Of a stretch of 64,000 nt of DNA, positions 18,252 to 39,600 are shown piece after piece. Both the position numbers and the translations under genes were made by a program. The DNA comes from Fibrobacterota bacterium (GTDB lineage: Bacteria > Fibrobacterota > Fibrobacteria > UBA11236): contig JAQBPN010000096.1 of NCBI GenBank assembly GCA_028287505.1, positions 1 to 64,000 on the forward strand, read 5' to 3'. A model generated the notes under the pieces. The model saw only the letters and a program-made list of their open reading frames with translations, was not told where the DNA came from and did not search any database. Position 1 is the stretch's first letter. Every line of letters begins with the position of its first letter.

Positions 18252-18560
18252 GGACCGCATCCTTGTATTGTAGCGGAAAGGCCCAAAGGGGACAACGCGG
18301 CATTGCGAATGCGCGGCCTTGGGAAAGGCCCCGGGCCCTTGGCGGTTGCAATCCCCGTTCCCGGTTCGGGTGCTTGCGCTTTTGGATGTTGCGCCGGATT
18401 TGAATGATTTGAGGAATCGTTTACGGTAAATCATTGCGAAAATCGGCCCTTTCCCCATCGCCGTCATTGCAGCGCGCTTCCGCCCACGGTACAATTGGAA
18501 ACGTTCTTCCAGGAAGCGCGACGGCTCCCGCATGCCGCCCTTCCGGAACCGATTGGGAAA
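18252..18560. promoter_or_regulatory. Divergent regulatory region with long-spaced inverted repeat
   Basis: These 309 bp separate the M48 and GAF genes and hold no supported gene. AATGATTT (18403-18410) and AAATCATT (18428-18435) form a perfect 8-bp inverted repeat around 17 bp, in an AT-richer patch. This geometry fits a dimeric regulator site or an extended promoter element for one or both genes. Confidence 0.4.
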
Positions 18561-20423
18561 ATGCCAGAAAATCACGAATCATCGCCGCTCAACCATCACG
18601 TAGATCCGGAACACCGGCACGGGGAAACGCGCCAAGTGGCCATCGTAGGCCTGAACCGGGAAACGGCCAACCTGTTGCCCAGCCTGCTGGACGCGGATGG
18701 CATCCAAGTCATCAAGGTGCTCAACCCCGAACTCGAGGACTTGAGCCGCCTGACCCAATATCCGCACCTGTCCATGGTCATCGACACCACCCATAACGCG
18801 TCCATCGCCGCCCGTTTGAAAAAGCTGCCGCTTAAAAAAGTGGATGTGATCAGCGGGCTGGGAGCCCGCATCCTTTTCTGCGGCATCCGCAAGGGCCATC
18901 CCGGAGAGAAGGACGGCATCCTGCAAAGCCTGGAGGAGATCAGGGAAGCATTGTGCCTGACCAAGAACAAGGCCGAGATCTTCAAGGTCATCCTGAACAC
19001 GGCGGTGAAATCATCCGGCGCGGATTGCGGTTCAATCATGCTCCTGGATCCCTCCAAACGCCAGCTGACCATCGAATCCGCCTACGGCCTGGAGGAGAGC
19101 GTCGTCGTCTCGTCCATCCAGCGCGTCGGCAAAGGCGTTTCCGGATGCGCCGTGCGCCGTTGCGAGCCGATCCTCATCAACGGGGCGGCGGACAAGCAGG
19201 CATACTCGGCCGATTACCAGAAACCGGAATTGGTTTCATCCATATGCTGCCCGCTCATGTTCGGAGAGGAAGCCGTGGGAGTCATCAACATCGCCAGCAA
19301 GAATCCCTCGCGCATCTTCGATCAGGCCGACGTGGCTTTCCTCGAGGAGCTGGCGCGCCTGGCGGCGGAAGTCATCAAGACCTCCAAGGATTACGAGGCC
19401 CCCCAGCATACGACCCAATCCCTGGGCCTGTTGAACAGCGTGCGGGAAATCCTCTCCATGAAGTACCGCTTCGAGGAGCGGATGAACCTGCTCCTGATGA
19501 AAATCGCCAACGCCCTCGGGGCCAAGGTCTGCACCTTCTACGAATTCAGTCCGACCGATCGCGTCTTCGTCGCCAAGGCATCCAGCTCCGTGAGCGTCAA
19601 CCTGCTGCGGGAACGGCCCATGTTCCTGGACGATTTCTTCACCCAGCGGGTCATCAAGACCAACACCACCTTTTGCGTGAACTCCACGGGCAAGGAGCCC
19701 CGCACCAAGAAATGGTACATGCTGCAGCCCATCCGCACGGGAACCGAGCTGGTGGGAACCCTGTTCATCTACCTGCATTCCGAGAAGAACCATCTGAAGG
19801 AAGAGATGGCTCTGATTAAAAAGGTCGGCGACATGCTGGCCCGGGAACTGGCCAAGAACCGCGAGATGGAAACCATCAAGGTCCAGTCGCTCAAGTACTC
19901 CGCCATCTCGCAATTCTCGTTCGATATCGCCAATGCCCGGAGCCTTCCGGATCTGATCAAGATGATCCTGTCCAACCTGCGGTTGATCCTGGAGGCGGAA
20001 ACCTGCGTGCTGCGGTTGCGCAATTCCCCCGCCGCGGCCTTGGAAGTGCGCGACAGCCTGTCCCACCGGAATCCGGTCTGGATGAAGGACATTCTGGCGG
20101 TGGACGAAGCCATCTGCTCCGACATGGTTCCCGGCAAGGGCGTGCTCAAAATCGACAAGCTGGGCGATAGCCGCTACGGTACGGAGAACCTGGCCTCGGA
20201 ATCCGTGCTCGCCATGGCCATCGAAATCAACGGGGAGATTCTGGGTACCTTGACCTTGTACGATAAGAAGGCCCTGGATCAGACCACGACGAGGAGCTTT
20301 TCCGATCAGGACAAGGACGTGATGCTCAACTTCTGCATGCAGGCAGGCAAGGGGTTGAAGCGGTTCTTCCCCTTCCCCGCCCCGGCGACGCAGTCCCAGG
20401 AGCCGGTCCTGGCCGATCTCTAG
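18561..20423 (+). CDS. Triple-GAF-domain sensory protein
   Basis: This protein has 620 residues from ATG 18561; the frame is open to a TTG at 18495, and neither has a strong ribosome-binding site. Residues about 24-115 look like a Rossmann or receiver-like domain (QVAIVGLNRETANLLPSLL) without phosphoacceptor motifs I can identify. Three GAF domains follow at about 131-300, 310-445 and 455-600 (for example SGADCGSIMLLD, GVINIASKNPSRIFDQAD and EILGTLTLYDKKALDQ). There is no histidine kinase, GGDEF, HD or DNA-binding output. It probably acts through protein contacts. It ends 17 bp from the convergent stress cluster. Confidence 0.82.
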   Translation: MPENHESSPLNHHVDPEHRHGETRQVAIVGLNRETANLLPSLLDADGIQVIKVLNPELEDLSRLTQYPHLSMVIDTTHNASIAARLKKLPLKKVDVISGLGARILFCGIRKGHPGEKDGILQSLEEIREALCLTKNKAEIFKVILNTAVKSSGADCGSIMLLDPSKRQLTIESAYGLEESVVVSSIQRVGKGVSGCAVRRCEPILINGAADKQAYSADYQKPELVSSICCPLMFGEEAVGVINIASKNPSRIFDQADVAFLEELARLAAEVIKTSKDYEAPQHTTQSLGLLNSVREILSMKYRFEERMNLLLMKIANALGAKVCTFYEFSPTDRVFVAKASSSVSVNLLRERPMFLDDFFTQRVIKTNTTFCVNSTGKEPRTKKWYMLQPIRTGTELVGTLFIYLHSEKNHLKEEMALIKKVGDMLARELAKNREMETIKVQSLKYSAISQFSFDIANARSLPDLIKMILSNLRLILEAETCVLRLRNSPAAALEVRDSLSHRNPVWMKDILAVDEAICSDMVPGKGVLKIDKLGDSRYGTENLASESVLAMAIEINGEILGTLTLYDKKALDQTTTRSFSDQDKDVMLNFCMQAGKGLKRFFPFPAPATQSQEPVLADL

Positions 20424-20440: not shown

Positions 20441-20881
20441 TTAGGCCTTGACCGCGTCCAGGGCCCGGGCGGAATTCCTGGCGAGGTTCTCCCCTTCCGC
20501 TCCCGAAGCGGAATCCACGTTCTGGAAATCGCCCCGCAGCGCCTTCAGAGCGTACTTCTCCTCATAGATTTCCTTGCGCGATCGCAATCCCAGGCTTTTG
20601 AGGATGCCTTCCGAGGGGCGCCACTTTTCCTGGGCCGCCAGGAACAACAAAGGCAGGGATGCCCAGGTCAGTACGCGCCACAGACGGCTCCCGGCGAACC
20701 CCATGATCATGCCGAAGAGACCGGCTCCGGAAAGGGCCAGGGAGACGAACTTCTCCGCGTCCCATTCCTCGTCCAGGGACCGGATGCGTTCGGTCAGGCC
20801 TTCCTTGCCAAGGGATCCGTAAAACCGGACATTGTCCCCGGTTCTGGACTGCGTGCTGTCTCGTTCCCTTGTTTCGATCAT
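20441..20881 (-). CDS. Small membrane protein of the stress/glucan cluster
   Basis: This protein has 146 residues from ATG 20879-20881, preceded by a strong GGAGG site nine bases upstream. The N-terminal third is charged and soluble (LGKEGLTERIRSLDEEWDAEKF). Two hydrophobic stretches (VSLALSGAGLFGMIMGFAG and VLTWASLPLLFLAA) form a hairpin, followed by a charged helix (KSLGLRSRKEIYEEKYALKALRG). This resembles YgaP-type transmembrane modules (DUF2892-like), but the match is weak. It lies 14 bp downstream of the CBS gene and so is likely its operon partner. Confidence 0.65.
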   Translation of the reverse strand: MIETRERDSTQSRTGDNVRFYGSLGKEGLTERIRSLDEEWDAEKFVSLALSGAGLFGMIMGFAGSRLWRVLTWASLPLLFLAAQEKWRPSEGILKSLGLRSRKEIYEEKYALKALRGDFQNVDSASGAEGENLARNSARALDAVKA

Positions 20882-20895
20882 GCGCCATTTCCTCC

Positions 20896-21297
20896 TTACG
20901 ATGTGCTTGGATGCCCTTTGGGCAGGTGTCGGGCTATTTGCGATTGGGTGACGATGCCGGAAACCCAACCCCGGGCGTCGATGACGACCATGCGGCGCAC
21001 CCCGTGCCGTTGCATCAGCAGCGTGCACTCCTGGAGCAACGCGTCTTCGCCCACGGTCAGCGCGGGCCCCGTCTGGATTTCCCGGGCGGACATTTCCAGG
21101 GGATTCTTCCCTTGCGCCACGGTGCGCACGGCGATGTCCCTGTCCGTAATCATGCCGATGGGGATCATTTCCGTTTCATTCCTCACAACGGGTATGGCCC
21201 CGCAGGCGTTTTCGACCATGAGCCTGGCGACCCGGGTCACCGGCGTGCCAGGAAGACAGCATACCGGATGCTCTGTCATCACGTCCTTAACGCGCAT
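20896..21297 (-). CDS. CBS-domain pair protein
   Basis: This protein has 133 residues, essentially two CBS motifs: MRVKDVMTEHPVCCLPGTPV, then GAIPVV and GMITDRDIAVR, and the second with RRMVVIDARGWVSGIVTQ. CBS pairs bind adenosyl ligands and sense energy or ionic state. The short free-standing form suggests it regulates a partner. It is a close paralogue of the protein at 31967-32401, sharing the unusual double Cys after the first helix (PVCC versus PICC) and MVEN.CGAIPVV. The start lacks a strong ribosome-binding site but aligns with its paralogue. Confidence 0.88.
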   Translation of the reverse strand: MRVKDVMTEHPVCCLPGTPVTRVARLMVENACGAIPVVRNETEMIPIGMITDRDIAVRTVAQGKNPLEMSAREIQTGPALTVGEDALLQECTLLMQRHGVRRMVVIDARGWVSGIVTQSQIARHLPKGHPSTS

Positions 21298-21431
21298 ATG
21301 GGCCGCCGGACCGGATGATCCGGCTCGCTAAAGCCGTGGATCCGTCCAAGTGGAAAATACCTTCTGGGCGGGTGCGACGCAAACGGCAAACCCGCGCTTG
21401 ATCCGCGAGCGGGGAAGCTTGCGGCCGGTAA

Positions 21432-22148
21432 CTAAGGAGAAGCGATGGATTGCGATCCCCGGAGGCCGGGCCGCCATGAGGAGGATTCGGACATGTGGGA
21501 AACCATTCCCGTCCGGAAGGCTCCGGGTCCAAGCAATCCGGCGCCGCCGGCGCCGAGCAGCGTGGCTCCTCCCGCCACCAGGGCCGCCCCCTGGCCGCCC
21601 CGCAGCCTGTATCCGATGGATGCCAGGACAATGCCTCCCGCGGCCATGATCAGGGAGACCCAATAGGGGTAACTTCCCGGTTTCCTACGCGCGGGGCGGA
21701 ATCCGGGTTCCGCATCGTTCCAGGAAGTGAAGGGCGGGGTAAGGGCTTCCAGCCTGTTCTCCAGATGCCTGACCCCCCTCATGCCGGAAAGCCCTTCCGC
21801 CAAGGCTCGGATCTCCCCTTCGCGGGCCGTGCCCGCCAGGAAAACCTTGCCCTGTTCCACCCGGAACTGCACGGCATCCGGACGCGCGACCATGCGGCCG
21901 ATTTTCGCCTTGATTTTTTCCTGCAGGATGGAATCCGGAACGTCCGCATGCACGACCAGGGCGCGGATCTCCCGCAAAAGCGATTGCGTCCGGACCACGA
22001 CGTCCACGACCGAAACCGAACCCTCAGGAAAGGCGGCCCTGTCCTGCCGGGCCTGAGCCCGGGATTGGGCCGGATCGCGGCGGTTGAGCCATCGTCCCGC
22101 GACCGCGCCGAAGCCGGCCCCCGCCAGAAAAACGAGGAGTCTATCCAT
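21432..22148 (-). CDS. BON-domain membrane protein
   Basis: This protein has 238 residues. An N-terminal hydrophobic segment with Gly zippers (LLVFLAGAGFGAVAGRWL) is followed by a charged linker and a BON domain at about 72-135 (ILQEKIKAKIGRMV, FRVEQGKVFLAGTAREGE, LSGMRGVRHLENRLE). Two more Gly/Ala-rich membrane stretches follow (YWVSLIMAAGGIVLASIG, LVAGGATLLGAGGAGLL) with a short polar tail. BON domains bind phospholipid or other ligands at the envelope and occur in osmotic-stress proteins such as OsmY. It fits the osmoadaptation theme of the cluster. Confidence 0.82.
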   Translation of the reverse strand: MDRLLVFLAGAGFGAVAGRWLNRRDPAQSRAQARQDRAAFPEGSVSVVDVVVRTQSLLREIRALVVHADVPDSILQEKIKAKIGRMVARPDAVQFRVEQGKVFLAGTAREGEIRALAEGLSGMRGVRHLENRLEALTPPFTSWNDAEPGFRPARRKPGSYPYWVSLIMAAGGIVLASIGYRLRGGQGAALVAGGATLLGAGGAGLLGPGAFRTGMVSHMSESSSWRPGLRGSQSIASP

Positions 22149-22255
22149 GGACTTAAAATACCTTTTCCCGGGGCGCGGTGCGCCTCTTTGGAAAAATGCG
22201 CGGCCCCGGACGCGGCGCTGGGGCCGCGGCGCGGCGCAATGGCCGCATTCCGCCC

Positions 22256-23029
22256 CTAGGTGCGCTGGGCCTGGCTGTAGGCGGTTTCGCCCGTTTCCAT
22301 CAAGGACTTGAACCGGCGCAAATCCTCGTCCACCATCTTGTCGGGATCTTTTCCGAAAAGCTTGGCGAACGCCTTGCCGGCCTTCCCCGCGGGCATCTCA
22401 TACTCCAGATAGACCCGGATGTCCGTGGCGCGGCCGTCGGAAATGGGCTCGAAGATGACCACGCCGTTGTTCTTGATCTCGGAGGTGTCCAGCGACCTCC
22501 ACGAGACCTTCCGGTTTTCCCGATCGTCCGTGATCTCCGCGTCCCATTCGATCTCGATCCCCGCGGGGGCCTTGGCCACCCAATGGGATCGGCGATCATC
22601 GATGGAACGCACCGACTTGAGGTGCTTCATCACCCGGGGCAGGTTTTCGAAATTGCGCCAGAAACGGTACACCTCTTCCGGGGACCGGTCCACGGCGATG
22701 GATTTCTCGGCCTTGAAGCTGCCGGTGCTTATCGCCTTCTTGACGGCTTTGGTCTTGTCGGCGGTATTGATCCCGAAAGCCTGGTAAATCAGGCTGCGCC
22801 CCAGGGTGCCCCGCAAGATCAGGTTTCCGCCCGCGAGCGCCAGCAAGGCTCCCAACCAGGAACGCCTCCTGACTCCCAAGTAGATCAACCCGCCTCCTAC
22901 GGCGGCGGAGATCCACCGCTCCGGCATCGCGACGTTTATCCTGGAGTCGGCCCGCTCCCCGTATCCGCCGACGTTTTCCGCCGCGGCATCCGGCCCGGCG
23001 TTGTCCCTCGAAATCTGGCTTCCGTCCAT
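22256..23029 (-). CDS. SRPBCC (cyclase/dehydrase) protein with YgaP-like membrane domain
   Basis: This protein has 257 residues with a strong AGGAGG site. Residues about 35-85 are a short membrane domain (ISAAVGGGLIYLGVRRRSWLG, LLALAGGNLILRG) of the DUF2892/YgaP type. Residues about 105-245 are an SRPBCC/START-like fold of the polyketide-cyclase/Coq10 class (SIAVDRSPEEVYRFWRNFEN, LPRVMKHLKSV, WDAEITDDRENRKVSWRS). The fold binds hydrophobic ligands. The pair with the BON and CBS genes is a combination often seen together in stress islands. It probably binds a lipid at the membrane; the ligand is unknown. Confidence 0.85.
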   Translation of the reverse strand: MDGSQISRDNAGPDAAAENVGGYGERADSRINVAMPERWISAAVGGGLIYLGVRRRSWLGALLALAGGNLILRGTLGRSLIYQAFGINTADKTKAVKKAISTGSFKAEKSIAVDRSPEEVYRFWRNFENLPRVMKHLKSVRSIDDRRSHWVAKAPAGIEIEWDAEITDDRENRKVSWRSLDTSEIKNNGVVIFEPISDGRATDIRVYLEYEMPAGKAGKAFAKLFGKDPDKMVDEDLRRFKSLMETGETAYSQAQRT

Positions 23030-23200
23030 TTTTCATCCTCCTCGATTGGTTGCAAATCGGTGCCCGGCTCGCAGGCCGGGGGTTTCGCACCCGCGCCGAC
23101 GCGGGGGAAACCGTCTTTTGATCTGTTTTAAAATAAAGTCGTGAAGGATGCGGTCAAAGCATATTCCGCGCCGAATGCGAGGAGGGGACAGGACGAGGAA

Positions 23201-26200
23201 TCAGGCCACGGGGCGGGAGCTTCCCATGCCCAGGCGGATATGATGCGTTTTCCCGTCATCTTCCAGCATGAGGGATTCGGGAACCGCGTCCAGTTTCACC
23301 CCGTCCACCTCGCAGGTATCGATGCCGCGGTTGGCGCCGTTGGGATTGAGCACGGTGATTTCGTAGAGGGCGGAGCCGCGACGATAGCGGATCTCGAAGC
23401 GGCGCCAGTCCCGGGGAATGCAGGGATTCATCACCAGCTTGTTTCCCAAAAGCCGGAAACCCAGTACCCACTCCAGGCCGGCGCGGTACATCCAACCCGC
23501 GGAGCCGGTATACCAGGTCCAACCTCCGCGGCCCACGTGGGGCGGAACGGCGTACACGTCCGCGGCCGCGACATAGGGTTCCACCTTGTATCGGTAGACG
23601 CCCGCGCGCGTGGCCGCATGGTTGACCGGATTCAGAAGCGAGAGCAGCTCCGCGGCCTTGTCCCCTTCGCCCAAGGATGCGAATGCCGCCACCACCCAGG
23701 CCGCGGCATGGGTGTACTGGCCGCCGTTCTCGCGGACGCCGGGCAGGTAACCTTTGATGTACCCCGGGTCCAGCGGGGAATTGTCGAAGGGGGGAGTGAA
23801 GAGGAGGATAAGCCCTTCCGCGCGCTTGACCAGGTATTCCTCCACGGAGAACATGGCCTGCCTGGCCCGGGTGGGATCGGCCGCTCCCGAAAGCACCGCC
23901 CAGGTCTGGGCGATTGAATCGATGCGGCACTCCTGGGATTGCGAGGAACCCAGAGGGGTCCCGTCGTCGAAGTAACCCCGGCGATACCAATCGCCGTCCC
24001 AGCCCTGGCTTTCCATGGCTTCGCGGATATGCTCGGCCCGGTCCCGCCAGGATCTGGCCCTGGCGATATCGCCCCTGGCTTCCGCGACGGTCGCGAACCC
24101 CTTGAGGTTGGGGATCAGGAACCATGCCAGCCATCCGCTTTCGCCCTTGCCCAGATGGCCCACGCGGTTCATGCCGTCGTTCCAATCCCCGCTGCCGATG
24201 AGGGGAAGCCCATGCGCCCCCACCTCGAGGCTGCGGTCCAAGGCGCGGGCGCAATGCTCATAGACGCTGGCCGATTCCTCCGAAACCTTGGGCTGGAAAT
24301 AGGCGTCCTCCCGGCCTTCCGGCACCTCAGGGCCTTCCAGGAAGGGGGTCTTCTCTTCCAATACAGGAGCATCCCCGGTAACCTCCAGATAGTGCAATAC
24401 CGCATACGGCAGCCAGACCCTGTCGTCGGAGAAACGCGTGCGCACGCCGCGGCCGGAGGGCGGATGCCACCAATGCTGTACGTCCCCGGCCTTGAATTGG
24501 CGCGCGGAGGCCCGCACGATCTGCTCCCGGGCCAGAGAGGCATCCAGGACCGATAGCGCCATCACATCCTGCAACTGATCGCGGAAGCCGAATGCGCCTC
24601 CGGCCTGGTAGAATCCGGATCGCGCCCAGAGCCTGCAGGCAAGCGCCTGATAGGGAAGCCAGCGGTTCAGGAGCAGATCCAGGGAACGGTCCGGCGTTTT
24701 GATTTGCACTCCGCCCAGCACATTGTCCCAACGCTTCTGGACATCTTTCCAGGAAGCGTCGAAATCGATGCCGCGGTACTTGCGGACCAGGGCCGAAGCC
24801 GCTTGTTCATCGGAGGCCTGGCCCAACGTGAAGACGATCTGCACCCGGCCGCCGGGAGGGATTTCCACATGGGTCTGAAGGGCCGTGCAGGGATCCAGGC
24901 CCGCTCCGGAACGGTTGGAGAGCGGCCCGGAGCGCAGCAAGGCCAAGGGTCTGGCGCGATCGCCGTTACGGCCCAGGAACTCCGCCCGGTCGCAGGAGAA
25001 GCCGCTCTGGCGCCCTTCCAGATCCACGAAGCCGATCTGATCCGCGAACTCGGCGATCCAGGGATTGCGCGCGAAGATGGCGCCGGTGGCAGGATCGCGG
25101 TGGGTCTGGACGTGCTGGGTCGAGGGGCCGCGCGTGGTTCCCAGCACCCATTCCACGTAGAAGGTAACGTCCAGGTGACGCATTTCCGCGGACATGTTCT
25201 CCAGGGTCAGGCGCGAAAGCTTGATGGAATCCTCCCAGGGGACCCATTGCAACAGTTCCTGGCGGATGCCGTGGGAAGAGTGCAGGAAGCGGGAATAGCC
25301 GTGGCCGTGGATGGCCACATAAGGCCGGCCTTCCTCGCGGATGGGGAGCGCGGTGGGGCCCCAGACCGCGCCGTTGTCGCGGTCGCGGATGTAGACCGCC
25401 TCGCCGGCGGGATCGGAAACCGGATCGTTGGACCAGGGCGTCAGCTTGCGCTCCCGGCTGTTCCCGCACCAGGTGAATCCCGAGCCGGCTTCCGAGGCCA
25501 GGAAGCCGAAATTCGGATTGGCAATCACGTTCACCCATGGGGCGGGAGTCCATTGCCCTTCCCCCAGGATGATCTGATACTCCTTCCCGTCGGAAGTGAA
25601 TCCGCCCAGTCCATTGAAGAATTCCAGATACGGCCTGGGAGGCGGCGCGTTGCCCTCCCCCGAAGGCTCCATCCGTTTAGGCGAAGGGGCGATGGGGACG
25701 ACGACCCGGCGCATGCGCATCACCTGGTCCGAAAGGCTGCCGCGCCGGGCGCTCAAGACGGCCCGGGCCGCCGCCTGCAACAACAGCCGGTCCTCGGGAG
25801 GAATGTGGTCCCGGCGGAGCAGAAATACCCCGCCCCGGGTAGCCTGTCCCGCATGCCGCATGCGCATCAGACCTTCCAGTTCATTCTGCTGGGGTTGCAG
25901 ATAGGATTCGGACGGGTTCTCGTTCAGCAATACCAGGTCCACGTCCACCCGTTTCATCTCCCAATACGAATGGGCCTTCAGGAGGTCCCTCGCCAGGTTG
26001 CGGTCCCCGGCCTCATCGAAGCTGGCGAACACGATGGGCAGATCCCCGGAGATACCGTATGGCCAGAGCGCCTCCTGGCCCTTGCGGTTCAATGCCAAAA
26101 GGTCCGGGGAAGGCCGCAGGGCCGGGTCCGGAAAGAACAATCGGTTGGCCAGCCGCTGATACAGGCGGGCCTCGTCCGGGCCGATCCCCAGATGGCGCAG

Positions 26201-29200
26201 CTGGATTTGCGCCTGGGTCCACGCCAGGGTGGCCACGCGTTCGAAAGCCTCGGTCTCCCGGTACTTGTCCGAAAGCGCCAGGGCCTGTTCCCGGGTGCCC
26301 GCCGCCAGGGTGGTGAAGGTGAGGCGGACCTTTCCGCCTTCGGGGACCACCACGCGGCGGCGCAGGCTGAAAACCGGATCCAGCACGGCCCCGGCGGTGT
26401 TGGAAAGCGGCTTTCCGTCCACGACGGAGACCGGGCGGCGCACGGTGCGGCCCCGGCCCAGGAAACGCGCGCGATCCGTCTCATACTGGATACCCCCCAC
26501 CGAGCGGCCTTCCACGCCGCATACGTGGGCCGCCCAGGAAGGGATTTCCGAAGCCGAGCGCGCCCGGCGCGTGGCCAGCAGGGCGCTCATGTTGGACACG
26601 AATTCGGTCTGGACGAAAAGATTGGAAAAGGCCGGATGGGCCAGATCGGCCTCGTGGGGCGCCATCACCACCTCGCAATAGGAGGTGACTTCGATTTCCC
26701 GATCCCGGTTGCCGTTGTTCTCCAAAGTCAGGCGCCGGACTTCCGCGTCGTCTTCCGGAGAAATGACGATTTCCAGGGTGGAGGTGATGGATCCGTCCCG
26801 GCGCGTGATTTCCACGCGGTCCTCGGCGAATACCGCCTCGTAGAAATCCGGCTCCGCGCCCATGGGCTGGTATCCGGCCGACCAGGTGTCTCCGCTCTCG
26901 GGATCGCGCAGATAGAGATATTGCCCGTAGGCGTCGAGTACGGCGTCTTCGCGCCAACGCGTGATCGCCTGCCCCTGCCAGCGGCTGAATCCGGAGCCGG
27001 CGGTGGTGATGAGCACCGTGTAGCGGCCGTTGGAAAGGATATGCGTGCGGGGAATGGGCTCGTGAGGCGTGCTGAAGCGGTGCAGCACCGGCTCTATCTG
27101 GCTTTCCACGTGCAGCGGGCGGGCCACTTCGTCGGCATGGGGTTTGGAAACGGCCCCTTTGGGGATGCGCTCCTGGAGCAGCGGATCCACCGCTTTGATG
27201 ATGGGCTCGGCGTGGAAACGCTCCTGCATCCGCCCGCCCAGCAACACATCCCCCAAAGCCACCAGCATCATCCCCTGATGATGGGCGAAATAGGATTTCA
27301 CGATGGTGGCCCTATCCCCTTCCTGCAGGCGGACCTTGGTATAATCGATGGCTTCGTAGAAACCATAGCGGCCCTCCGCCCCTTCCCGGCGCAGGCGATC
27401 CAGGTTTTCCGCGGCTTCCCGCGGCGACACCAGCGCCGCCAGACCCGTGGCATAGGGCGCCACCACCAAATCCCCGCTCAGGCCGCGCTTGAGCCCCAGG
27501 CCCGGGACGCCGAAGCTGGAATACTGGTACGTCATTTCCAGATCGCGGATGTTGTACGCGGCCTCGGAAATGCCCCAGGGAATGCCGTTATCGTTGCCGT
27601 ACTCGATTTGCCTTTTCACCGCATAGCGGCAGGCCACGTCCAGAAGGCTGCCGGGCGGCGAACGCATCACCAGGAGCGGCATCAGGTATTCGAACATGGA
27701 GCCGGACCAGGAGAGCAGGGTGGCGCCCTTCCCCACCGGGGTCAGGGTGCGGCCCAACCGGAACCAATGGGAAGGAGGCACGTCGCCTTTGGCCACCGCC
27801 AGAAAGCTGGTGAGGCGCACTTCCGAGGCCAGCAAATCGTAGAAACTGGGATCCAGGGCCTCTTCGCGCACCCGGAATCCGATGGCGAACAACTTGCGCT
27901 GGGGATCCTCCAGGAAGGAGAAGTCCATATCCAGGCTCAAGCGCTCCGCAGTAACCGAGATGATACCCAGCCGATCCAATAGCGCGCGCGCTTCCCGCGC
28001 GGCCTTGATGAGTTGTCCCGCCAGCACGGCCGCGCGCTCGCGCGACAGGGGCGGCTCGGGCCCCTCGCCGGGCACGTGGGACGGCAAGCCGCGCAATTCG
28101 GCCGCGGCGGCCAGGCAACGGGCTTCCAGGACGCTCAGGGACAGGCGTCCGTGCAGGAGCCGGTGGGTTTCCGGAATGGGCAGATCGCACAGCGCTTCCA
28201 GCGTCAGTCCCGCGCCCGCCCAGGGAAAATAGGTCTGGATGTCCCGGGAGACGCCCGCCAAGGAGGCGCGCAGCAACTCCGCCCGGGCCTGCAACTCCGT
28301 GAAGACCTCATCCTTCTGCTCCATGGCCAGGCTGCGGGCCACGTCCACCACCGCCTCCGCCTGGGCCTCCCAATCGGAAACCCGCGAAGTCCATTCGCCC
28401 ACGTCGGCGGGAATGGGAAGCAGCAGGTCTTCCAGCGCTTCCAGAGCCTCCAGCATATGCTTGCGGCCGAAAGCCTGCACGCGCAGGTTTTCCGGCAAGG
28501 CCAGGGCGGACTCCTTCACCAGATTGATGAGATCGGCCAGCCCCTCTTCCAGGGAGGGAGACAGGATTTCCGCGCCCATGTATTCGAGGCAGGCGCGCTT
28601 GAGGGCCAGCAGGTGGCCGGCCAGGTTCCCGCTGTCCACCGTAGAGATATAGCGCGGCTCCAGGGGCCGCAGGTCCTGGGTGGCGTACCAGTTGAAGAAA
28701 TGCCCGCGGTAACGTTCCAGTTTCCCCATGGAGGCGAGCACGGACTCCAGGCGCTGCGCAGTTTCCGCCAGTCCCAGCCATCCCAGATCCCGCGCGGTGG
28801 AAATGGAAAGCAGGCAGAGGCCCATATTGGTGGGCGAGGTGCGATGGGCCACCACCGGTTTCGGATCCTCCTGGAAATTGTCCGGCGGAAGGTAATTGTC
28901 CTGGGGGCCCACGAAGTCGCGGAAAAACCTCCAGGTCTTCAGCGCCGTATACCGGAGGCTCAGCCGTTCCTTGGCGGACAGGCTTTCCTCGGGATGCTCG
29001 GCGCGCGGCGTGCTGGCCAGCAGGGCCAAGGCCGGAGAGACGATCCAAAGCACCAGCAAAGGCAAGGCGATGACGAGATTGCCTTCGCGATCCAGCAGAA
29101 ACATACCCCCCATCAGGGCTCCCGGCAGGATGACCGCTCCCGCCATGGAGCGATAGAAACCGAACAGGCCCTTGCGGAGGCTGGCTTTGGCCTGGGCCGC

Positions 29201-31915
29201 GGCCGTCCATTCCAGCATGTTCCCGTGGGACACGAACATCCGCCATAGGGTGCGGATGGCCGCATCGGAGAGAAGCCAGGCCTGGTGAGCCAGGAGAACG
29301 ATGGAAAGCAGATAATTGGAGAGGGCCTGGAGCAGGTTCTCGCCGGAATCCCTGAGATAGCGCCGCAGGGAAAAACCCGAACGCGGGGGCGAGACCGCTT
29401 CCGATGCCGAGACCAGGAAAGGAAGGATCATGGCGACCAGCACCAGGGCGGTCCAGGCGACCGGCGGGGTGGCGGCCAAAAGCCATCCGAGCGCCAGAGA
29501 CAGGAATGCGCAAGGCGGGACCAGGGCGCGGCGCAGGTTGTCCAGCATCTTCCAGCGTCCCAGGAAAGGCAGCCCCTTGCCCCTGCGCCCCAGGATCCAG
29601 GGAAGCAATTGCCAGTCTCCGCGCGCCCAGCGATGCTGCCTGACCGCATAGGCCTGGTAATGGGAAGGGAACTCTTCCAAAACCTCTACGTCGGTGAGGA
29701 GCCCCGCGCGCGCGAAAATGCCCTCGAAAAGATCGTGGGAGAGCAATGCGTTGTCGGGAACCCGATCCCGGAGGGAATCCTCGAAGGCGTCCACATCATA
29801 GATGCCTTTGCCGCTGAAGGAACCTTCGTTGAAAAGATCCTGGTAGACATCGGAAACGGCGGCCGCATAGGGATCGATGCCGCATTGGCCCGACGTGATC
29901 CAATGGAACAAGGTGCGCTCGGTGTTCTCGGGCAGGGAGGGGACCACCCTGGGCTGCATGATTCCGTAGCCTTCCGTGACCCGCCCCCGGGAGGAATCGA
30001 AACGGGCGCGATTCAGGGGATGGGCCATGCTTCCCGTCAGGCGCGCGGCCGCGCCCTTGGGAAGGCGCGTATCGGCGTCCAAGGTGATGACGTATTTGAC
30101 GTCCTTGGGGATTTCCGCGGCTTCCCGTTCCGACAACATGAAGGAGACATCGCGTTCCCCGCGCAACAACCGGTTCAACTCCCAGAGTTTGCCTCGCTTC
30201 CGTTCCCAGCCCAGCCATTTGCGATCCCGCGCATTCCAAAGCCGCTTGCGATGCAACAACAGGAAACGCGTACCTCCCTCCGGAAGGGGGCCGTATCGAT
30301 CGTTCAATTCGACCATGCCCGCCACGGCGGCTTCCAGCAGTTCCAGGTCGCCCGGCATCTCCGCCTGGGGCGCATCCGCCCAGTCGGTGAGCAGACTGAA
30401 GCGGATGTCCCCGTCCGGATTGGCCAGATAATGGACTTCCAGCCGTTCCAACAACTCCTGCACGTCCGCTTTGTTGCGCAAGAGCGCGGGGAGGGCCACC
30501 AGGGTCCGGCAGGCGCCGGGTATGCCTTTGGAAAAATCCAGCTTGGGCAGGATGCGGGGAGGCATGAGGGTTATCACGAAACGGTTCACGAGCGCCATGG
30601 CCCCTTCGGAAAGGGGAAGCGCGCCGAGGATTCCCAGAATGATCAAAGCTGCCAATCCCATGCCGCTGTCGGCGAGGGATTCCACTCCCTGCACGGCGAA
30701 CATGATGGTGAACGCGAGAATGGTCGCCGGATAGATCCAGATCCCATTGGCTTTCAGGAACCGGCCCAGGGATTCCCGGAAGCGCGGACGATATCCCAGT
30801 TCGGTTTCGAACCAAGGCAGTCCTTTTCCGATCAGGAAAAACCCGGCCTCCCCCGTGGCTCCCGGCATCCGGTTCCCGACGGCTTTCACCGCCTTGGAAG
30901 CCACCTCCGTTTCCTGCACTCCGGATCCGCGCGCCAGGTTTTCCACGGCGTGGCGGTAAAGATCCCGGGACGGGAAATCCATGTCCCGGTAGCCGGGAGA
31001 GGAACGCAGGATGGCTTCCACCTCGCTGGCGGTTTCGAAGAATTCCTTCCAATCCAGTTCCAGCACCAAGCGCATGCTGGTGATGATGTTGCGGACGGAT
31101 ACGTTGAGCGCGGCCTGCTTCTGGTGCTCTTGGCGGATGATTTCCTGCGCGGACAGACCCCGCCGCGCGAGTTCGCGATCGAGCCATTCCAGGGGCGGGG
31201 CCTGGGGCGGCGCCTGATCCTGCAGACGCTGGAAAAGCTGCACGGCGAAGGCCGCGAAATAGGGGGAATCCCCCAATTGCTCCCAGTCACGGGCGGTGAC
31301 GTCCGCGGCCCCGGCTTCCTGCGTGCGCAGCCCCAACAACATGTCCGCCACTCTGTCGGCCTTGATGCGCGCCTCGCGTCCGCCCACCACCAGGTCGGCC
31401 AGGCGGCGCAGGTTTTCGATCAGGGCCACCCGCAGGGTGATGGCCACGGCCCAGAGTTCGCCGATGGTCAGGGGCTGCACCTTCTGGTAGGCGCGGATGA
31501 ACCGCCCCAGAACCTCCGCGTCCAGGCGGCTGTCCGTATGCGCGATATAGGCGCAGATGACCGCATATACCCGCGGGTAATCCTTGAAACCGCCTTCCGG
31601 CAACTTCGGCAGGTCGCGGTAATAGGAAGGCGGCAGATGGTTGCGGATCTCGCGCAACTGCTCGTCCACCACGTGGAAGTTGTCGGTCAGCCATTCGGCC
31701 GCGGGAGTGATGCTCCGGTCCGCCAAAGCCGTGCGGGCGATGATCCGATGCGCCGCGCGCAGGGCGGCCCCGTTCTCCTCCACGCGATGGAGCAGCGGAT
31801 AGCCGCGGCGGCGGGGACGCGCGGATTTGTGGGATGCCGCCAGGGTGGCGGCGTATTCCTCAAGATGTTCGGCGCTGAAGATTTCGCCGCGGATGGGTTC
31901 GCTTTCCGGAGGCAA
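23201..31915 (-). CDS. ndvB: Cyclic beta-1,2-glucan synthase (NdvB/Cgs type)
   Basis: This 2904-residue inner-membrane enzyme makes cyclic beta-1,2-glucans from UDP-glucose for the periplasm. The N-terminal soluble region (about 1-390) precedes membrane segments at about 400-475. The GT84 glycosyltransferase domain follows, with the TLDADTRLP motif near residue 612 and RQHRWARGDWQ near 765. More membrane segments occupy about 790-1000. The glucoamylase-like domain carries TYQYSSFGVPGLGL near 1465. The C-terminal half has two GH94-type phosphorylase modules with the catalytic GSGDWNDGMN near 2575, which set ring size. The size is close to Brucella and Agrobacterium Cgs. The start is a TTG with a weak site, 51 bp after the CBS stop and in the same frame, so the exact start is uncertain. 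Confidence 0.93.
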   Translation of the reverse strand: MPPESEPIRGEIFSAEHLEEYAATLAASHKSARPRRRGYPLLHRVEENGAALRAAHRIIARTALADRSITPAAEWLTDNFHVVDEQLREIRNHLPPSYYRDLPKLPEGGFKDYPRVYAVICAYIAHTDSRLDAEVLGRFIRAYQKVQPLTIGELWAVAITLRVALIENLRRLADLVVGGREARIKADRVADMLLGLRTQEAGAADVTARDWEQLGDSPYFAAFAVQLFQRLQDQAPPQAPPLEWLDRELARRGLSAQEIIRQEHQKQAALNVSVRNIITSMRLVLELDWKEFFETASEVEAILRSSPGYRDMDFPSRDLYRHAVENLARGSGVQETEVASKAVKAVGNRMPGATGEAGFFLIGKGLPWFETELGYRPRFRESLGRFLKANGIWIYPATILAFTIMFAVQGVESLADSGMGLAALIILGILGALPLSEGAMALVNRFVITLMPPRILPKLDFSKGIPGACRTLVALPALLRNKADVQELLERLEVHYLANPDGDIRFSLLTDWADAPQAEMPGDLELLEAAVAGMVELNDRYGPLPEGGTRFLLLHRKRLWNARDRKWLGWERKRGKLWELNRLLRGERDVSFMLSEREAAEIPKDVKYVITLDADTRLPKGAAARLTGSMAHPLNRARFDSSRGRVTEGYGIMQPRVVPSLPENTERTLFHWITSGQCGIDPYAAAVSDVYQDLFNEGSFSGKGIYDVDAFEDSLRDRVPDNALLSHDLFEGIFARAGLLTDVEVLEEFPSHYQAYAVRQHRWARGDWQLLPWILGRRGKGLPFLGRWKMLDNLRRALVPPCAFLSLALGWLLAATPPVAWTALVLVAMILPFLVSASEAVSPPRSGFSLRRYLRDSGENLLQALSNYLLSIVLLAHQAWLLSDAAIRTLWRMFVSHGNMLEWTAAAQAKASLRKGLFGFYRSMAGAVILPGALMGGMFLLDREGNLVIALPLLVLWIVSPALALLASTPRAEHPEESLSAKERLSLRYTALKTWRFFRDFVGPQDNYLPPDNFQEDPKPVVAHRTSPTNMGLCLLSISTARDLGWLGLAETAQRLESVLASMGKLERYRGHFFNWYATQDLRPLEPRYISTVDSGNLAGHLLALKRACLEYMGAEILSPSLEEGLADLINLVKESALALPENLRVQAFGRKHMLEALEALEDLLLPIPADVGEWTSRVSDWEAQAEAVVDVARSLAMEQKDEVFTELQARAELLRASLAGVSRDIQTYFPWAGAGLTLEALCDLPIPETHRLLHGRLSLSVLEARCLAAAAELRGLPSHVPGEGPEPPLSRERAAVLAGQLIKAAREARALLDRLGIISVTAERLSLDMDFSFLEDPQRKLFAIGFRVREEALDPSFYDLLASEVRLTSFLAVAKGDVPPSHWFRLGRTLTPVGKGATLLSWSGSMFEYLMPLLVMRSPPGSLLDVACRYAVKRQIEYGNDNGIPWGISEAAYNIRDLEMTYQYSSFGVPGLGLKRGLSGDLVVAPYATGLAALVSPREAAENLDRLRREGAEGRYGFYEAIDYTKVRLQEGDRATIVKSYFAHHQGMMLVALGDVLLGGRMQERFHAEPIIKAVDPLLQERIPKGAVSKPHADEVARPLHVESQIEPVLHRFSTPHEPIPRTHILSNGRYTVLITTAGSGFSRWQGQAITRWREDAVLDAYGQYLYLRDPESGDTWSAGYQPMGAEPDFYEAVFAEDRVEITRRDGSITSTLEIVISPEDDAEVRRLTLENNGNRDREIEVTSYCEVVMAPHEADLAHPAFSNLFVQTEFVSNMSALLATRRARSASEIPSWAAHVCGVEGRSVGGIQYETDRARFLGRGRTVRRPVSVVDGKPLSNTAGAVLDPVFSLRRRVVVPEGGKVRLTFTTLAAGTREQALALSDKYRETEAFERVATLAWTQAQIQLRHLGIGPDEARLYQRLANRLFFPDPALRPSPDLLALNRKGQEALWPYGISGDLPIVFASFDEAGDRNLARDLLKAHSYWEMKRVDVDLVLLNENPSESYLQPQQNELEGLMRMRHAGQATRGGVFLLRRDHIPPEDRLLLQAAARAVLSARRGSLSDQVMRMRRVVVPIAPSPKRMEPSGEGNAPPPRPYLEFFNGLGGFTSDGKEYQIILGEGQWTPAPWVNVIANPNFGFLASEAGSGFTWCGNSRERKLTPWSNDPVSDPAGEAVYIRDRDNGAVWGPTALPIREEGRPYVAIHGHGYSRFLHSSHGIRQELLQWVPWEDSIKLSRLTLENMSAEMRHLDVTFYVEWVLGTTRGPSTQHVQTHRDPATGAIFARNPWIAEFADQIGFVDLEGRQSGFSCDRAEFLGRNGDRARPLALLRSGPLSNRSGAGLDPCTALQTHVEIPPGGRVQIVFTLGQASDEQAASALVRKYRGIDFDASWKDVQKRWDNVLGGVQIKTPDRSLDLLLNRWLPYQALACRLWARSGFYQAGGAFGFRDQLQDVMALSVLDASLAREQIVRASARQFKAGDVQHWWHPPSGRGVRTRFSDDRVWLPYAVLHYLEVTGDAPVLEEKTPFLEGPEVPEGREDAYFQPKVSEESASVYEHCARALDRSLEVGAHGLPLIGSGDWNDGMNRVGHLGKGESGWLAWFLIPNLKGFATVAEARGDIARARSWRDRAEHIREAMESQGWDGDWYRRGYFDDGTPLGSSQSQECRIDSIAQTWAVLSGAADPTRARQAMFSVEEYLVKRAEGLILLFTPPFDNSPLDPGYIKGYLPGVRENGGQYTHAAAWVVAAFASLGEGDKAAELLSLLNPVNHAATRAGVYRYKVEPYVAAADVYAVPPHVGRGGWTWYTGSAGWMYRAGLEWVLGFRLLGNKLVMNPCIPRDWRRFEIRYRRGSALYEITVLNPNGANRGIDTCEVDGVKLDAVPESLMLEDDGKTHHIRLGMGSSRPVA

Positions 31916-31966
31916 CAGGTTCTCGGTCGCGCTTCCGGGATTGATTTGGGTGGCCGCGGCGCTGAT

Positions 31967-32401
31967 TTAACGGTCTCCTGCCGGACGGGAGACTTCTTCC
32001 ATCACTTCCACGACTTCCTTTTCCCCCGTGTGGAGCGCGATGTCCGCCACGGAAACGATGCCCGAGCAGCTTTGGTTCGCATCGACGATAAGGACGCGCC
32101 GCAATTGATGGGCCTCCATTTCGCGGATGCACTCCTCCACGCTGGCGTCCTCTCTCACGGTCACGGGGCTGATGGTCATCACCTCTTCCGCCGTCATTTC
32201 CAGGGGATTGCGCCCCTCGGCCACGGCGCGGACGGTGATGTCCCTGTCGGTGATGATCCCGACGGGTTTCCAGCTTTCCTGATCCTCGACCACGGGAATG
32301 GCGCCGCAATCGTTCTCCACCATCATGCGCGCCACTTCCTCGAGCGCGGTTTCCCGCACGCAGCAAATCGGATTCTCGGTCATGATCTCTTTGATCTGCA
32401 T
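31967..32401 (-). CDS. CBS-domain pair protein upstream of ndvB
   Basis: This protein has 144 residues. The start at 32399-32401 is chosen because GGAGG lies seven bases upstream and because MQIKEIMTENPICC then aligns with the paralogue MRVKDVMTEHPVCC at 20896-21297. Two CBS motifs are evident (GIITDRDITVRAVAEG and RRVLIVDANQSCSGIVSVAD). A short acidic tail follows (EKEVVEVMEE). Its tight placement between the SRPBCC gene and the glucan synthase suggests that it senses nucleotide or ionic state and modulates the synthase or its expression. Confidence 0.9.
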   Translation of the reverse strand: MQIKEIMTENPICCVRETALEEVARMMVENDCGAIPVVEDQESWKPVGIITDRDITVRAVAEGRNPLEMTAEEVMTISPVTVREDASVEECIREMEAHQLRRVLIVDANQSCSGIVSVADIALHTGEKEVVEVMEEVSRPAGDR

Positions 32402-32414
32402 ATCCATTCCTCCT

Positions 32415-32873
32415 TCACAATCCGGCAAAACCGGTTTCAATCAGATCCGTCATCATATGCGAACCCTTGGCCAGGTAGCCCGGAAGGGAACGCTCCAGGA
32501 ATAGGTTGGCCTCGCCGGCGGCCCTGCCGGAAGCCGGACCGTATTCGATCTCCAAATCCAGGCGGGTGGACCCGGCGCGCTCGCGGAACCGCGCCCGCCC
32601 CGAACATTGGATCGGCGACTGGGAATCGCTGCCCCATTCCAGGTATTGATTGGGAACCAGACGGGTGATGACGGCGTCCCAGATAAAAGTGCGGCCGTTG
32701 GATCCGCCCAGTTCAAAGAGATAGCGGGAATGGCCCAGCTCCCGGACCGATTCCACCCCGTCCAGATACCGCGGCAATCCGGTGAAAGCGGTCCAATGGG
32801 CGAACACCTCTTCCACGGGCGCCTGGAATTCCAGGCTATGCCTGACATGATAGAACGGCTGGACCGGATCCAT
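32415..32873 (-). CDS. SRPBCC-family soluble protein
   Basis: This protein has 152 residues, a stand-alone SRPBCC/START-like fold: HVRHSLEFQAPVEEVFAHWT, LPRYLDGVESV, YLEWGSDS and EANLFLERSLPGYLAKG. There is no membrane domain, unlike its relative at 22256-23029. It starts after a strong GGAGG site and is the first gene of the minus-strand cluster that continues into the CBS and ndvB genes with a 13-bp gap. Members of this fold bind lipids or polyketides, and this one may be a soluble partner of the membrane version. The ligand is not known. Confidence 0.85.
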   Translation of the reverse strand: MDPVQPFYHVRHSLEFQAPVEEVFAHWTAFTGLPRYLDGVESVRELGHSRYLFELGGSNGRTFIWDAVITRLVPNQYLEWGSDSQSPIQCSGRARFRERAGSTRLDLEIEYGPASGRAAGEANLFLERSLPGYLAKGSHMMTDLIETGFAGL

Positions 32874-33176
32874 GGCTCAAGACCTCCCCATAGCCCAAAT
32901 GCCCGTGTAGGCGGGCATCGGGTTTAGCATGAAACTACGTTTTGGATTTTGGCTCAGAAAGAAGAAAAGCGCGAATAGCAGGCATGGGAAAGGCTTTTTC
33001 AGTCTGGATTCGAGGCATCGACCAGAAAAAAGGGTCGGAAGGTCCTGTCAGTGTTTCCCGGGCAAAAAAAAACGCTGCATCCAGAACCTGGATGCAGCGT
33101 ATCGATTGAAAACCTGCCAAGGCCGGAAAAAGCGTCCGCCCGGCTGCCCGGACGGAACCTCTCCAACCCGCGGGTC
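32874..33176 (-). other. Intergenic region holding the rpsA terminator
   Basis: These 303 bp lie between the stop of rpsA and the start of the SRPBCC gene, both on the minus strand. The rpsA intrinsic terminator occupies 33064-33100. The remainder (32874-33063) must hold the promoter of the stress cluster, but no clear -35/-10 pair is apparent. No gene is supported. Confidence 0.5.
33064..33100 (-). terminator. Strong intrinsic terminator after rpsA
   Basis: On the minus strand a 13-bp stem (ACGCTGCATCCAG paired with its complement, three-base loop) is followed by nine T residues. It is about 75 bp downstream of the rpsA stop. It is one of the clearest intrinsic terminators in the window and separates rpsA from the stress/glucan cluster. 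Confidence 0.92.
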
Positions 33177-35908: not shown

Positions 35909-36691
35909 ATGCCGACCCGTCCCGCTCACCGCCATTCCCGTATCGCCAAGGCCGTAGGCCTGCTCTGCGCGGTTTTCCTCTTCCAGGGTTTCTACTGCGC
36001 CCAGAAGAACGATCCCCCCAGCCTGCCGAGCGCCCACCTCACCGATATCCATCTGAAAATGGAAGACCCGGCCTCCGGATCGCCGGGCGTTTATGTCGCC
36101 TGGGAATACCCCGCCGACGGAAAGGTTTCCTATTTCGATATCTACCAGGGAACGAAAAAGGACTCCTTGAAGCATCCTCTCCAGTCCCATCTTCCCGGCG
36201 ATTCCCTGCACGTGGTTCTGGCTCTTCCGGATTCATCCCGGCCATTCACCCTTTACTATGCGGTGCGGGCCGTGCTGGTGGAGCCTACGGGCCAGAAGCT
36301 GATAGGCGATACTTTGCCGGTGGATTCCCTGACCATCGCTCCCTCCCTGACCATCCTGCAGCCCGCCGGCGGATCCCATCAAAGCGGCCGGACCCTGACC
36401 ATGCAAGTGCAGACCGCCAGCGACAACGGCGTGATGATCCGGATGTCCTACTTTGAAAAAACCGGTCCGGACTGGTTCCTCAAACAGGATACCTGCCTGC
36501 CCACGGATCGATGCGGGTTCCCCATCTTCGGAAATTCCGTGCAGCGCGATTCCCTGATCCTGGAGCAGCACGCCGCCGGCGATACCATCCCGGCCCTGTT
36601 CTGCGTGGTGGGCACGGAAAGCTTCCAGGACCAACCCACGGGACTGATCCAGTCGCTGGGCTGCACGCGTTACTTCCGGGTGGATCCATGA
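35909..36691 (+). CDS. Probable lipoprotein coupled to C25 peptidase
   Basis: This protein has 260 residues from ATG 35909; a TTG at 35891 is an alternative. The N-terminus has a signal segment ending in a Cys (LLCAVFLFQGFYC), which fits a lipobox only loosely. The mature part is beta-rich, with an fibronectin-like region (VYVAWEYPADGKVSYFDIYQG; LYYAVRAVLVEP) and a second beta region with two Cys (CLPTDRCGFPIFG). The last four bases overlap the start of the peptidase gene (ATGA), so the two are translationally coupled. It may be an accessory or surface-anchoring partner of that peptidase. The role is not known. Confidence 0.78.
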   Translation: MPTRPAHRHSRIAKAVGLLCAVFLFQGFYCAQKNDPPSLPSAHLTDIHLKMEDPASGSPGVYVAWEYPADGKVSYFDIYQGTKKDSLKHPLQSHLPGDSLHVVLALPDSSRPFTLYYAVRAVLVEPTGQKLIGDTLPVDSLTIAPSLTILQPAGGSHQSGRTLTMQVQTASDNGVMIRMSYFEKTGPDWFLKQDTCLPTDRCGFPIFGNSVQRDSLILEQHAAGDTIPALFCVVGTESFQDQPTGLIQSLGCTRYFRVDP

Positions 36692-39600
36692 ACTCTCTGC
36701 GCCTGCTGGCCGCTTTGGGAACCTATTGCCTGGCCGCGGCGGCCGTGATTGAAGCCGCTCCCGTACCCTTCGACGCGGAATGGACCCTTGAAGCTTCCGA
36801 TGCCGCGGGAATGCGCTTGCTCTGGAAAAACTCCCAGGCAGGACAACCGGGCGGATCCCGCCTCCGCAGCCTGGCCATCGCGGTCCCTCCCGGCAACACG
36901 GCGGACGCGGTCCTGGAATCCCCGCAGACTCCCGGCGCCGTGCTCAAGGTCAGTCCGCCCTCGCGCTTCCGGGATGTATTCATCGCCGCCCTCAGCTTCG
37001 AACCTTCGGGATCGGCAAGCCCCGGGACCGGCGGCCAGGCGTCCAACGCTCCCGCCGAGGCGCGCATCCGCATCGCCTTCCGCAAAGCGGCCTCGGCCGC
37101 TCCCTTCCGGACCTCCTTCGCGGCTTCCGAAACCGCGCCCGCGGAGCGGCACCTGCAAGGTTGGCTGGCGAACTATCCCCAGTCCCGCGGATTCCGCAGC
37201 ATGCCCGCGACCGCCCTGGCCAAAACGGGAGAAGACGGACCGTGGGCGGGAGCCTCCCTGCCCAAGAATCGATTGGTGATCAAGACTTTGGACGAAAACA
37301 TCCAGGCGCTCGATTACGATGCGTTGGCGAAAGCGGGCGTTCCCGTCGGCCGCATCGACCCGCGTTACATGCGGCTTTTCAGCAACGGCAAGGAAATCCC
37401 CATGTACATCAATGGCGAGGGGGACGGCCATTGGGACCACGGCGACTATATCGAGTTCATAGGCAAGCGCGCCTCCGGACAGAACACCTACAACTCGTTG
37501 TATACATCGCGGGCGGTTTTCATCCTGGTCTGGGACGGCGGACGCCTGGGTCTGCGCGCACCCGCAGTACCGGTAGCTTCGCGCACGGGCGGTCTGATCC
37601 CCTCCTTTCCGGCCGATGCCAAAGCGGCTCTGCCCTTCCGCTCGCGGGTGCACGTGGAAGAGGATCTCGACATCCTCCGCATCGGCAACACCTCCGCCGA
37701 GGAACCCGTGGACCTGGCTTTGAATGGCCAGGAGGCTGAACTGGGCGATTTCTGGGTCTGGAAAAGGCTGGGCGCGGAAAAGGATGTCCTCGCAATCCCG
37801 TTCGTCCTGGCATCCAGTCCGTACTCGCCGGCCAAAGGCAGCGGCTCCGTGGGCGCCAACGGCGCCTTGACGGTCACCATCAACCTCAAGGGCGTCACCA
37901 ACAATCCCAATGCCAATCCCGATCACCACCTGAAATTCCTCCTCAACGACAAAACCATCTCCGATGCCGGAGGCAAGAGTTACGATGCCATTTGGGAAGG
38001 CCAGGAATCCTATACCTGGGTCTCGCCGCCCTTGGACCCTTCCGCGCTGTTGACCGGCAAGAACAGCCTGAGCATCCAAAAGGTGAACGACCTGATAACC
38101 TCGGACGGGCAGGTGGTGGAGGTGCAGGACGCTTATCTCAACTACATCGAATTGGACTTCCCCTCCCTCTACGCCGCGTTCGAAGACAAATTGACCTTCA
38201 GCAACTCCTTCGCCGACAGCGCCGGTCTGAAACTGTTCACGGTGACGGGATTTTCCACGGAGGACGTGAGCCTATGGGATAAGCTGGGCCGCAAGCTCAC
38301 CAACTTCCGCATGATCCGCCGCGGGGACGGATTCGAGATGAGCTTCCTGGACACCCTGGCGGGCCGGACCGACTATATCGCCTGCGCCGCCGCGAAACGC
38401 GAACTGCCGCTGATCGAGTTGGACACCCTCGACGATTTGACGAACCCGAACCAGGGCGCGGATTACCTGGTGATCACCCAGCGGGAACTGCTGGGCGACG
38501 CCCTCGATTCGCTCCTGCAATTCCGCACCAAGCAGGGGATGCGCACCCGCGTGGTCATGGCCCGCCATATCTACCAGGCCTTCGGCGACGGCAGCCTGGA
38601 CCCGGCCGCCATCCGCCGCTTCGTCGCGTATGCGTACAAGAACTGGACCCGGCCCGCGCCTACCTACCTGGTGCTGGTCGGGGATGCGTCCCAGAGCTTC
38701 GAAAAGCGCAGCGGCGAAACCATAGTCCCCTACCATCCCATCAACATCATCGGCTGGGGCGTGGCCGCCAACGATGATTACTACGGCAAGGTTTCGGGCG
38801 ACGACGACCTCTCGGATCTGTTCGTCGGGCGCATCCCCGTGGTCCGCAAAGAAGATCTGTCCAGCGTGGTCCGCAAAACCCTGCTTTTGGAAAACTCCCG
38901 GCCGCAAGGGCATTGGAGCAACAAAGCCCTGCTCATCTCCGGGTTCGAATCCCAATTCACCACCCAGAACTATGAGCTGCAAGGCATCGCCTCCGCCAAC
39001 GATCGCCAGTATTCCCGGCTCGATCTCTTTCCGGCTTCGCCCTATTACAAAAGCGCCCCCGAGCGGACCAATTTCTTCGATCAGTTGGATTCCGGTTTCA
39101 ACCTGGTCAGCTTCATCGGCCACGGAGGCGGGGCGGTCTGGTCGGATGCGGGCGTGCTCACCCTCAAGGCCCTCGACGAAGGCAAGCTGAAGGGCGAATA
39201 TCCCATCAACCTGGTCTCTTCGGTCACCTGCCTCACCGGCTTTTTCGAAGACAACGACGCCCGCTCGCTGGGCGAGGAGATGGTCCGGCGCAAGCAGGGC
39301 GGAGCGGCCGCATTCTACGGAGCCGCGGGATACATCTCCAACGTGGCCGGAGTGGCGCTTTCATCCGAAATCCTCAAAGCCGCCACCAGTAACGCCTATG
39401 CTACTACGGGCGAGATCATCACCCAGGCCGAAACCATGGTCAAGCTCAGGACCGGGAACGTGTTCCTGCCTATCATGGCCGAGTTCAACTTGTTGGGAGA
39501 TCCGGCCCTGGGCCTGCGCTTCCCCGCCAAGGAAGGCGACCTGGCCCTGGATCCGCAGGTGCTGGCGGGCGGGGCCGGCTTGGATGCCAGGGGAAGCAAA

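Follow-up and report, generated by a model that had tools for sequence, protein, structure and literature searches.

In a window of 64,000 nucleotides from a Fibrobacterota bacterium (contig JAQBPN010000096.1, positions 1 to 64,000), a complete cyclic beta-1,2-glucan synthase (Cgs) is encoded in a discrete block of seven genes. We think it probable that this block is a genus-restricted envelope or osmotic-stress island at a site of gain and loss, and that the genes accompanying the synthase encode co-resident stress proteins and not dedicated regulators of Cgs. The block is real, discrete and variable, and between species it comes and goes. It is an assembly of known parts in a local arrangement, not a widespread new system.

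Gene content and boundaries of the block

All seven genes lie on the minus strand inside positions 20441-32873 and run, from 32873 to 20441, in the order srp1, cbs1, cgs, srp2tm, bon, cbs2, smp. The first gene, srp1 (32415..32873), encodes an SRPBCC protein of 152 aa (Pfam PF10604/PF03364, Polyketide_cyc/cyc2) with an orthologue at 73% in the genus-mate G004. It is followed by cbs1 (31967..32407), encoding an HRP1-like stand-alone CBS pair of 146 aa (PF00571 twice), and by the synthase gene cgs (23201..31915). Downstream of cgs lie srp2tm (22256..23029; 257 aa), combining a YgaP-like transmembrane hairpin with an SRPBCC domain (PF11127 and PF03364), and bon (21432..22148), encoding a BON-domain membrane protein of 238 aa (PF04972) with two C-terminal hydrophobic segments by hydropathy (160-182 and 188-207). 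The last two genes are cbs2 (20896..21297), a paralogue of cbs1 encoding a tandem CBS protein of 133 aa (PF00571 twice; G004 orthologue at 63%), and smp (20441..20881), encoding a small membrane protein of 146 aa with a hydrophobic segment by hydropathy (44-64). Every named domain is backed by Pfam, BON alone falling just below its cut-off (26.4 bits in the window versus a 27-bit cut-off; 37.5 bits for the G004 orthologue). The seven co-directional genes with these domains, as listed in a first-pass annotation of the window, were thereby confirmed.

The island is a discrete block, because a strong intrinsic terminator (33072..33100, minus strand), a 13-pair stem followed by a T-run, separates it from rpsA, a convergent GAF gene (18495-20423) closes its other end, and the corresponding site is empty in one genus-mate, G001. 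Elsewhere in the window, at 36511-41511 on the plus strand, a large C25-family peptidase with a FlgD_ig/CHU_C-type C-terminal domain is encoded, which suggests type IX-like secretion in the host genome.

Short gaps separate srp1 from cbs1 (7 nt), cbs1 from cgs (51 nt, with the start of cgs taken as TTG 31915) and cbs2 from smp (14 nt). The gaps are longer between cgs and srp2tm (171 nt), srp2tm and bon (107 nt) and bon and cbs2 (134 nt), and these gaps of 107-171 bp make two or three transcripts plausible. No convincing terminator was found inside the block: its gaps fold no better than shuffled sequences, and terminator-like sites occur at chance rate (12 versus 10.9).

Two of the longer gaps contain short motifs. 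AAGGTATTTT (21354..21363, minus strand), in the gap before cbs2, is present in two copies in the window, versus 0.03 expected. AAAGGTATTTT (22155..22165, minus strand) lies 6 nt before the start of bon and is conserved before bon in G004. Seven exact copies occur across the window genome (L234-L240), and each is oriented towards a gene start that follows at short distance; read by eye, these are BON, Zn-ADH, aldo/keto reductase, bacterioferritin-like, UBP zinc finger, IlvB-like and small protein genes. AAAGGTATTTT may serve a stress regulon as a promoter or regulatory site or, before bon, act in part as a ribosome-binding site. A genome-wide stress promoter behind this motif was left as a lead, the shorter 10-mer being hardly more frequent than its reversed control (14 versus 11). 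The extra copies of the 10-mer lie mostly inside reading frames, and in genus-mates there is no obvious tendency for the motif to stand before the same genes.

The cyclic glucan synthase

Cgs of the window aligns with Agrobacterium NdvB/ChvB (8rf0, also 8rf9) over residues 5-2857, nearly its whole length, and has the same full-length architecture of GT84, GH189-type cyclisation and GH94 domains, so that the earlier description of a complete NdvB-type synthase stands. The isolated cyclisation domain of the Thermoanaerobacter enzyme (TiCGS, 8wy1) matches it as well. The published set of active-site residues of Agrobacterium Cgs (PMC10901819) was placed on the window protein by counting along the alignments, and all nine mapped residues are identical: D527, D624, D626, D739 and R773 in the GT domain, D1104 and E1300 in the cyclisation (CY, GH189-type) domain, where PF10091 (Glycoamylase) is present, and D2393 and D2528 in the GP (GH94 phosphorylase) domain, where PF06165 and PF17167 are present. 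Judged by these residues, the enzyme is ordinary and apparently intact. No other protein of the host genome was found to carry GH94 supersandwich domains. Ahead of TTG 31915, the first usual start, the cgs reading frame continues uninterrupted to the stop codon of cbs1 and includes no ATG or GTG; a Shine-Dalgarno-like GGAG lies ahead of an ATC near 31965, and TTG 31915 is a putative start.

What distinguishes this cgs from known ones is its genomic partners and its phylogenetic position. Among 83 Cgs proteins placed in one tree, those of the genus group on a branch of their own, which is not close to the Cgs of a Fibrobacter MAG and is sister to a mixed-phylum clade comprising Chloroflexi, Rokubacteria, Acidobacteria, Gemmatimonadetes, Methylococcales, Bdellovibrio relatives and copies on proteobacterial plasmids. 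The nearest relatives, from many phyla and plasmids, share about 50-58% identity. This mixed-phylum placement points to horizontal spread of the cgs gene. The host genome itself most likely belongs to Fibrobacterota, as RpsA of the window shares 62-64% identity with a named Fibrobacter MAG and with a class-mate, versus 43-52% with other phyla. The association of cyclic beta-1,2-glucan synthesis chiefly with Rhizobiales and Brucella is correct as history, yet a scan of a genome collection found Cgs genes in many phyla.

Gain and loss within the genus and neighbourhoods beyond it

The window genome (G000) was compared with five genus-mates (G001-G005). The full block is also present in G004, in the order rpsA - srp2tm' - srp1 - cbs1 - cgs - srp2tm - bon - cbs2 - smp - GAF. 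It is partial in G003 (srp2tm' - cbs1 - cgs - srp2tm - smp - GAF, with rpsA elsewhere) and in G002 (cgs - smp - GAF). G005 retains a remnant without synthase (srp2tm' - cbs1 - GAF), and in G001 the site is empty, with rpsA and GAF about 120 bp apart. Genome-wide searches found no cgs in G005 and no full-length cgs in G001. In G002 cgs is immediately preceded, at the contig end, by an ORF reading by eye like an IS-type ATPase (L115:1-700, G002:C44); no CBS, BON or SRPBCC gene was found next to cgs there, and further upstream genes may have been lost or may lie out of view. Genus-mates that have the block share its gene order, and its recurrence in close relatives, in full in G004 and shortened in G003 and G002, makes it more than a one-genome accident.

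In the RpsA tree G001 joins G003 with 86% support. Because G003 carries a form of the block, loss in G001 is the simpler reading, and the tree suggests, if weakly, that the island is ancestral to the genus and was later lost from some members, including G001. A recent insertion of the island was considered as well and set aside on this weakly supported grouping.

Content that varies at one site, made up of families that have different partners elsewhere, might also mark the rpsA-GAF interval as a hot spot of gain and loss which gathers unrelated genes with no common function. We regard so coincidental a collection as improbable: the order of the genes has been kept between species with 74-84% identity in Cgs, paralogues accumulate at the site (two CBS, up to three SRPBCC), some pairs are so closely spaced as to suggest co-transcription, and those accessory families that have a name are stress-type families.

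The first-pass annotation had proposed to look for conserved neighbourhoods of such synthases with CBS, BON and SRPBCC genes. Among the close relatives the block recurs in full or in part; beyond the genus no such neighbourhood was found at the loci scanned. The scan covered 80 Cgs loci from many phyla outside the genus with flanks of up to 10 kb where available, 1.11 Mb in total, many flanks ending at contig ends. Since single-query homology searches for accessory genes near Cgs were likely too insensitive, HMMs for BON, CBS and the SRPBCC type of the island were built from Pfam-located sequences and run on all flanks. The full Cgs-CBS-BON-SRPBCC combination was present at 0 of the 80 loci within these available flanks, and the same HMM search found island-type SRPBCC at none. 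A CBS domain was found near Cgs at six loci, four times inside larger proteins and twice as a small stand-alone protein (L036, L095). BON proteins occurred at six (L111, L085, L099, L095, L048, L038). CBS and BON came together only at L095, 7-8 kb from Cgs. These genomes carry roughly one BON domain per Mb, a density that predicts at most 1.1 in the flanks against the six loci observed (P about 0.001, Poisson, relatedness ignored); three of the six are in Betaproteobacteria, no more than 2.2 kb away from Cgs. Given this modest enrichment, it is plausible that Cgs and BON share an osmotic role. At L111 both genes are on one strand, and the BON gene stops about 100 bp short of the cgs frame.

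No recurrent cluster of Cgs neighbours elsewhere in the scan resembles the island; the recurrent neighbours are heterogeneous and comprise sensors, regulators (Crp/Fnr-like proteins among them) and phosphoglucomutase. On a conjugative plasmid of Phenylobacterium zucineum (L228), cgs is directly followed by phosphoglucomutase and universal stress proteins. This Cgs, of the neighbouring mixed-phylum clade, is likewise set among stress genes, whereas CBS, BON and SRPBCC genes are not annotated in the stretch viewed. Phosphoglucomutase lies near other Cgs loci too, a linkage to precursor supply. In the library searched, no paper was found to link BON, CBS and SRPBCC genes to Cgs.

Role of the accessory genes

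The accessory proteins resemble general stress components that each lineage has combined in its own way. The cbs1 product has ST2348 and Rv2626c/HRP1 as its closest solved relatives. Like HRP1 (E 4e-17), it consists of two CBS domains only, in the size range of about 130-150 aa (about 130-146 aa in this comparison), and the difference lies in the two CBS paralogues that the island carries. Orthologues of cbs1 occur in G004, G003 and G005; its relatives elsewhere are common stand-alone CBS proteins. The SRPBCC part of srp2tm is homologous to solved DR_A0006 (E 3e-33), and plasmids of Deinococcus and Roseomonas encode nearly full-length matches. Those sampled elsewhere, on Deinococcus, Roseomonas and Scytonema plasmids, adjoin zinc-dependent alcohol dehydrogenases and not Cgs. 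Smp has no family match in Pfam or NCBIfam. Remotely related to it are hypothetical proteins encoded by proteobacterial plasmids; in Agrobacterium, Neorhizobium, Cupriavidus and Sphingobium its relatives adjoin DUF2243 proteins or lie close to them. A role in anti-phage defence was also considered and dropped, a PADLOC search of the accessory proteins giving 0 matches.

The most serious alternative is a dedicated Cgs control module of this genus, in which the tandem CBS proteins would sense adenylates or ionic state and, acting through the membrane proteins SRPBCC, BON and Smp, would set synthase activity or glucan export. Part order is kept within the genus, cbs1 lies directly upstream of cgs in three genomes (G000, G004, G003), and smp stands beside the Cgs region in four of the four Cgs-bearing genomes and is absent, at the site, from both genomes without cgs. 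The kept order and the position of cbs1 are compatible with a functional tie. The same comparison holds the evidence against it: G005 has CBS1 and SRPBCC-TM without Cgs, no CBS, BON or SRPBCC gene was found adjoining Cgs in G002 (an IS-like ORF and the contig end lie upstream), and Cgs of other phyla comes without such neighbours. We therefore consider a control module unlikely, if less so than a chance collection. A general system of Cgs regulation is not supported, one restricted to the genus is possible, and the self-contained Cgs-regulating system of the first-pass annotation is not supported in view of the 80 outside loci, the synthase-free pair of G005 and the cgs of G002, which has only smp beside it (upstream cut).

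If any gene of the block encodes a dedicated partner of Cgs, smp (four of four Cgs-bearing genomes) and the downstream srp2tm (three of four) are better candidates than the CBS genes. That both in fact serve the synthase, for example in glucan release or export, with the CBS pair gating the enzyme by nucleotide state, is the least probable of the readings considered; if true, it would add a lineage-specific control layer to a classic osmolyte synthase.

We thus favour the stress island with co-resident accessory genes, because CBS and SRPBCC-TM persist without the synthase in G005 and Cgs elsewhere does without them. Cgs would polymerise glucose from UDP-glucose through its GT84 domain, the GH94 phosphorylase would trim the glucan chain and the GH189 domain would close it into a ring. 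Exported by a transporter encoded elsewhere, the glucan rings would then act as a periplasmic osmolyte. The two HRP1-like CBS proteins, the two SRPBCC proteins, BON and Smp would be stress proteins of cytoplasm and membrane, not synthase subunits, and would not regulate Cgs directly. The block would presumably be induced by stress, and probably as more than one transcript, with srp1-cbs1-cgs and cbs2-smp as its tight parts.

Regulation of Cgs by the accessory proteins would bear on the tuning of enzyme output; the comparative evidence does not favour it. With the window, a complete Cgs is documented in a Fibrobacterota lineage other than Fibrobacter, and its neighbour in the tree is a clade that extends across many phyla and plasmids. 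Within a single genus the full, partial, Cgs-less and empty forms of the block make up a natural series of gain and loss, on which the importance of each neighbour for the synthase could be tested.
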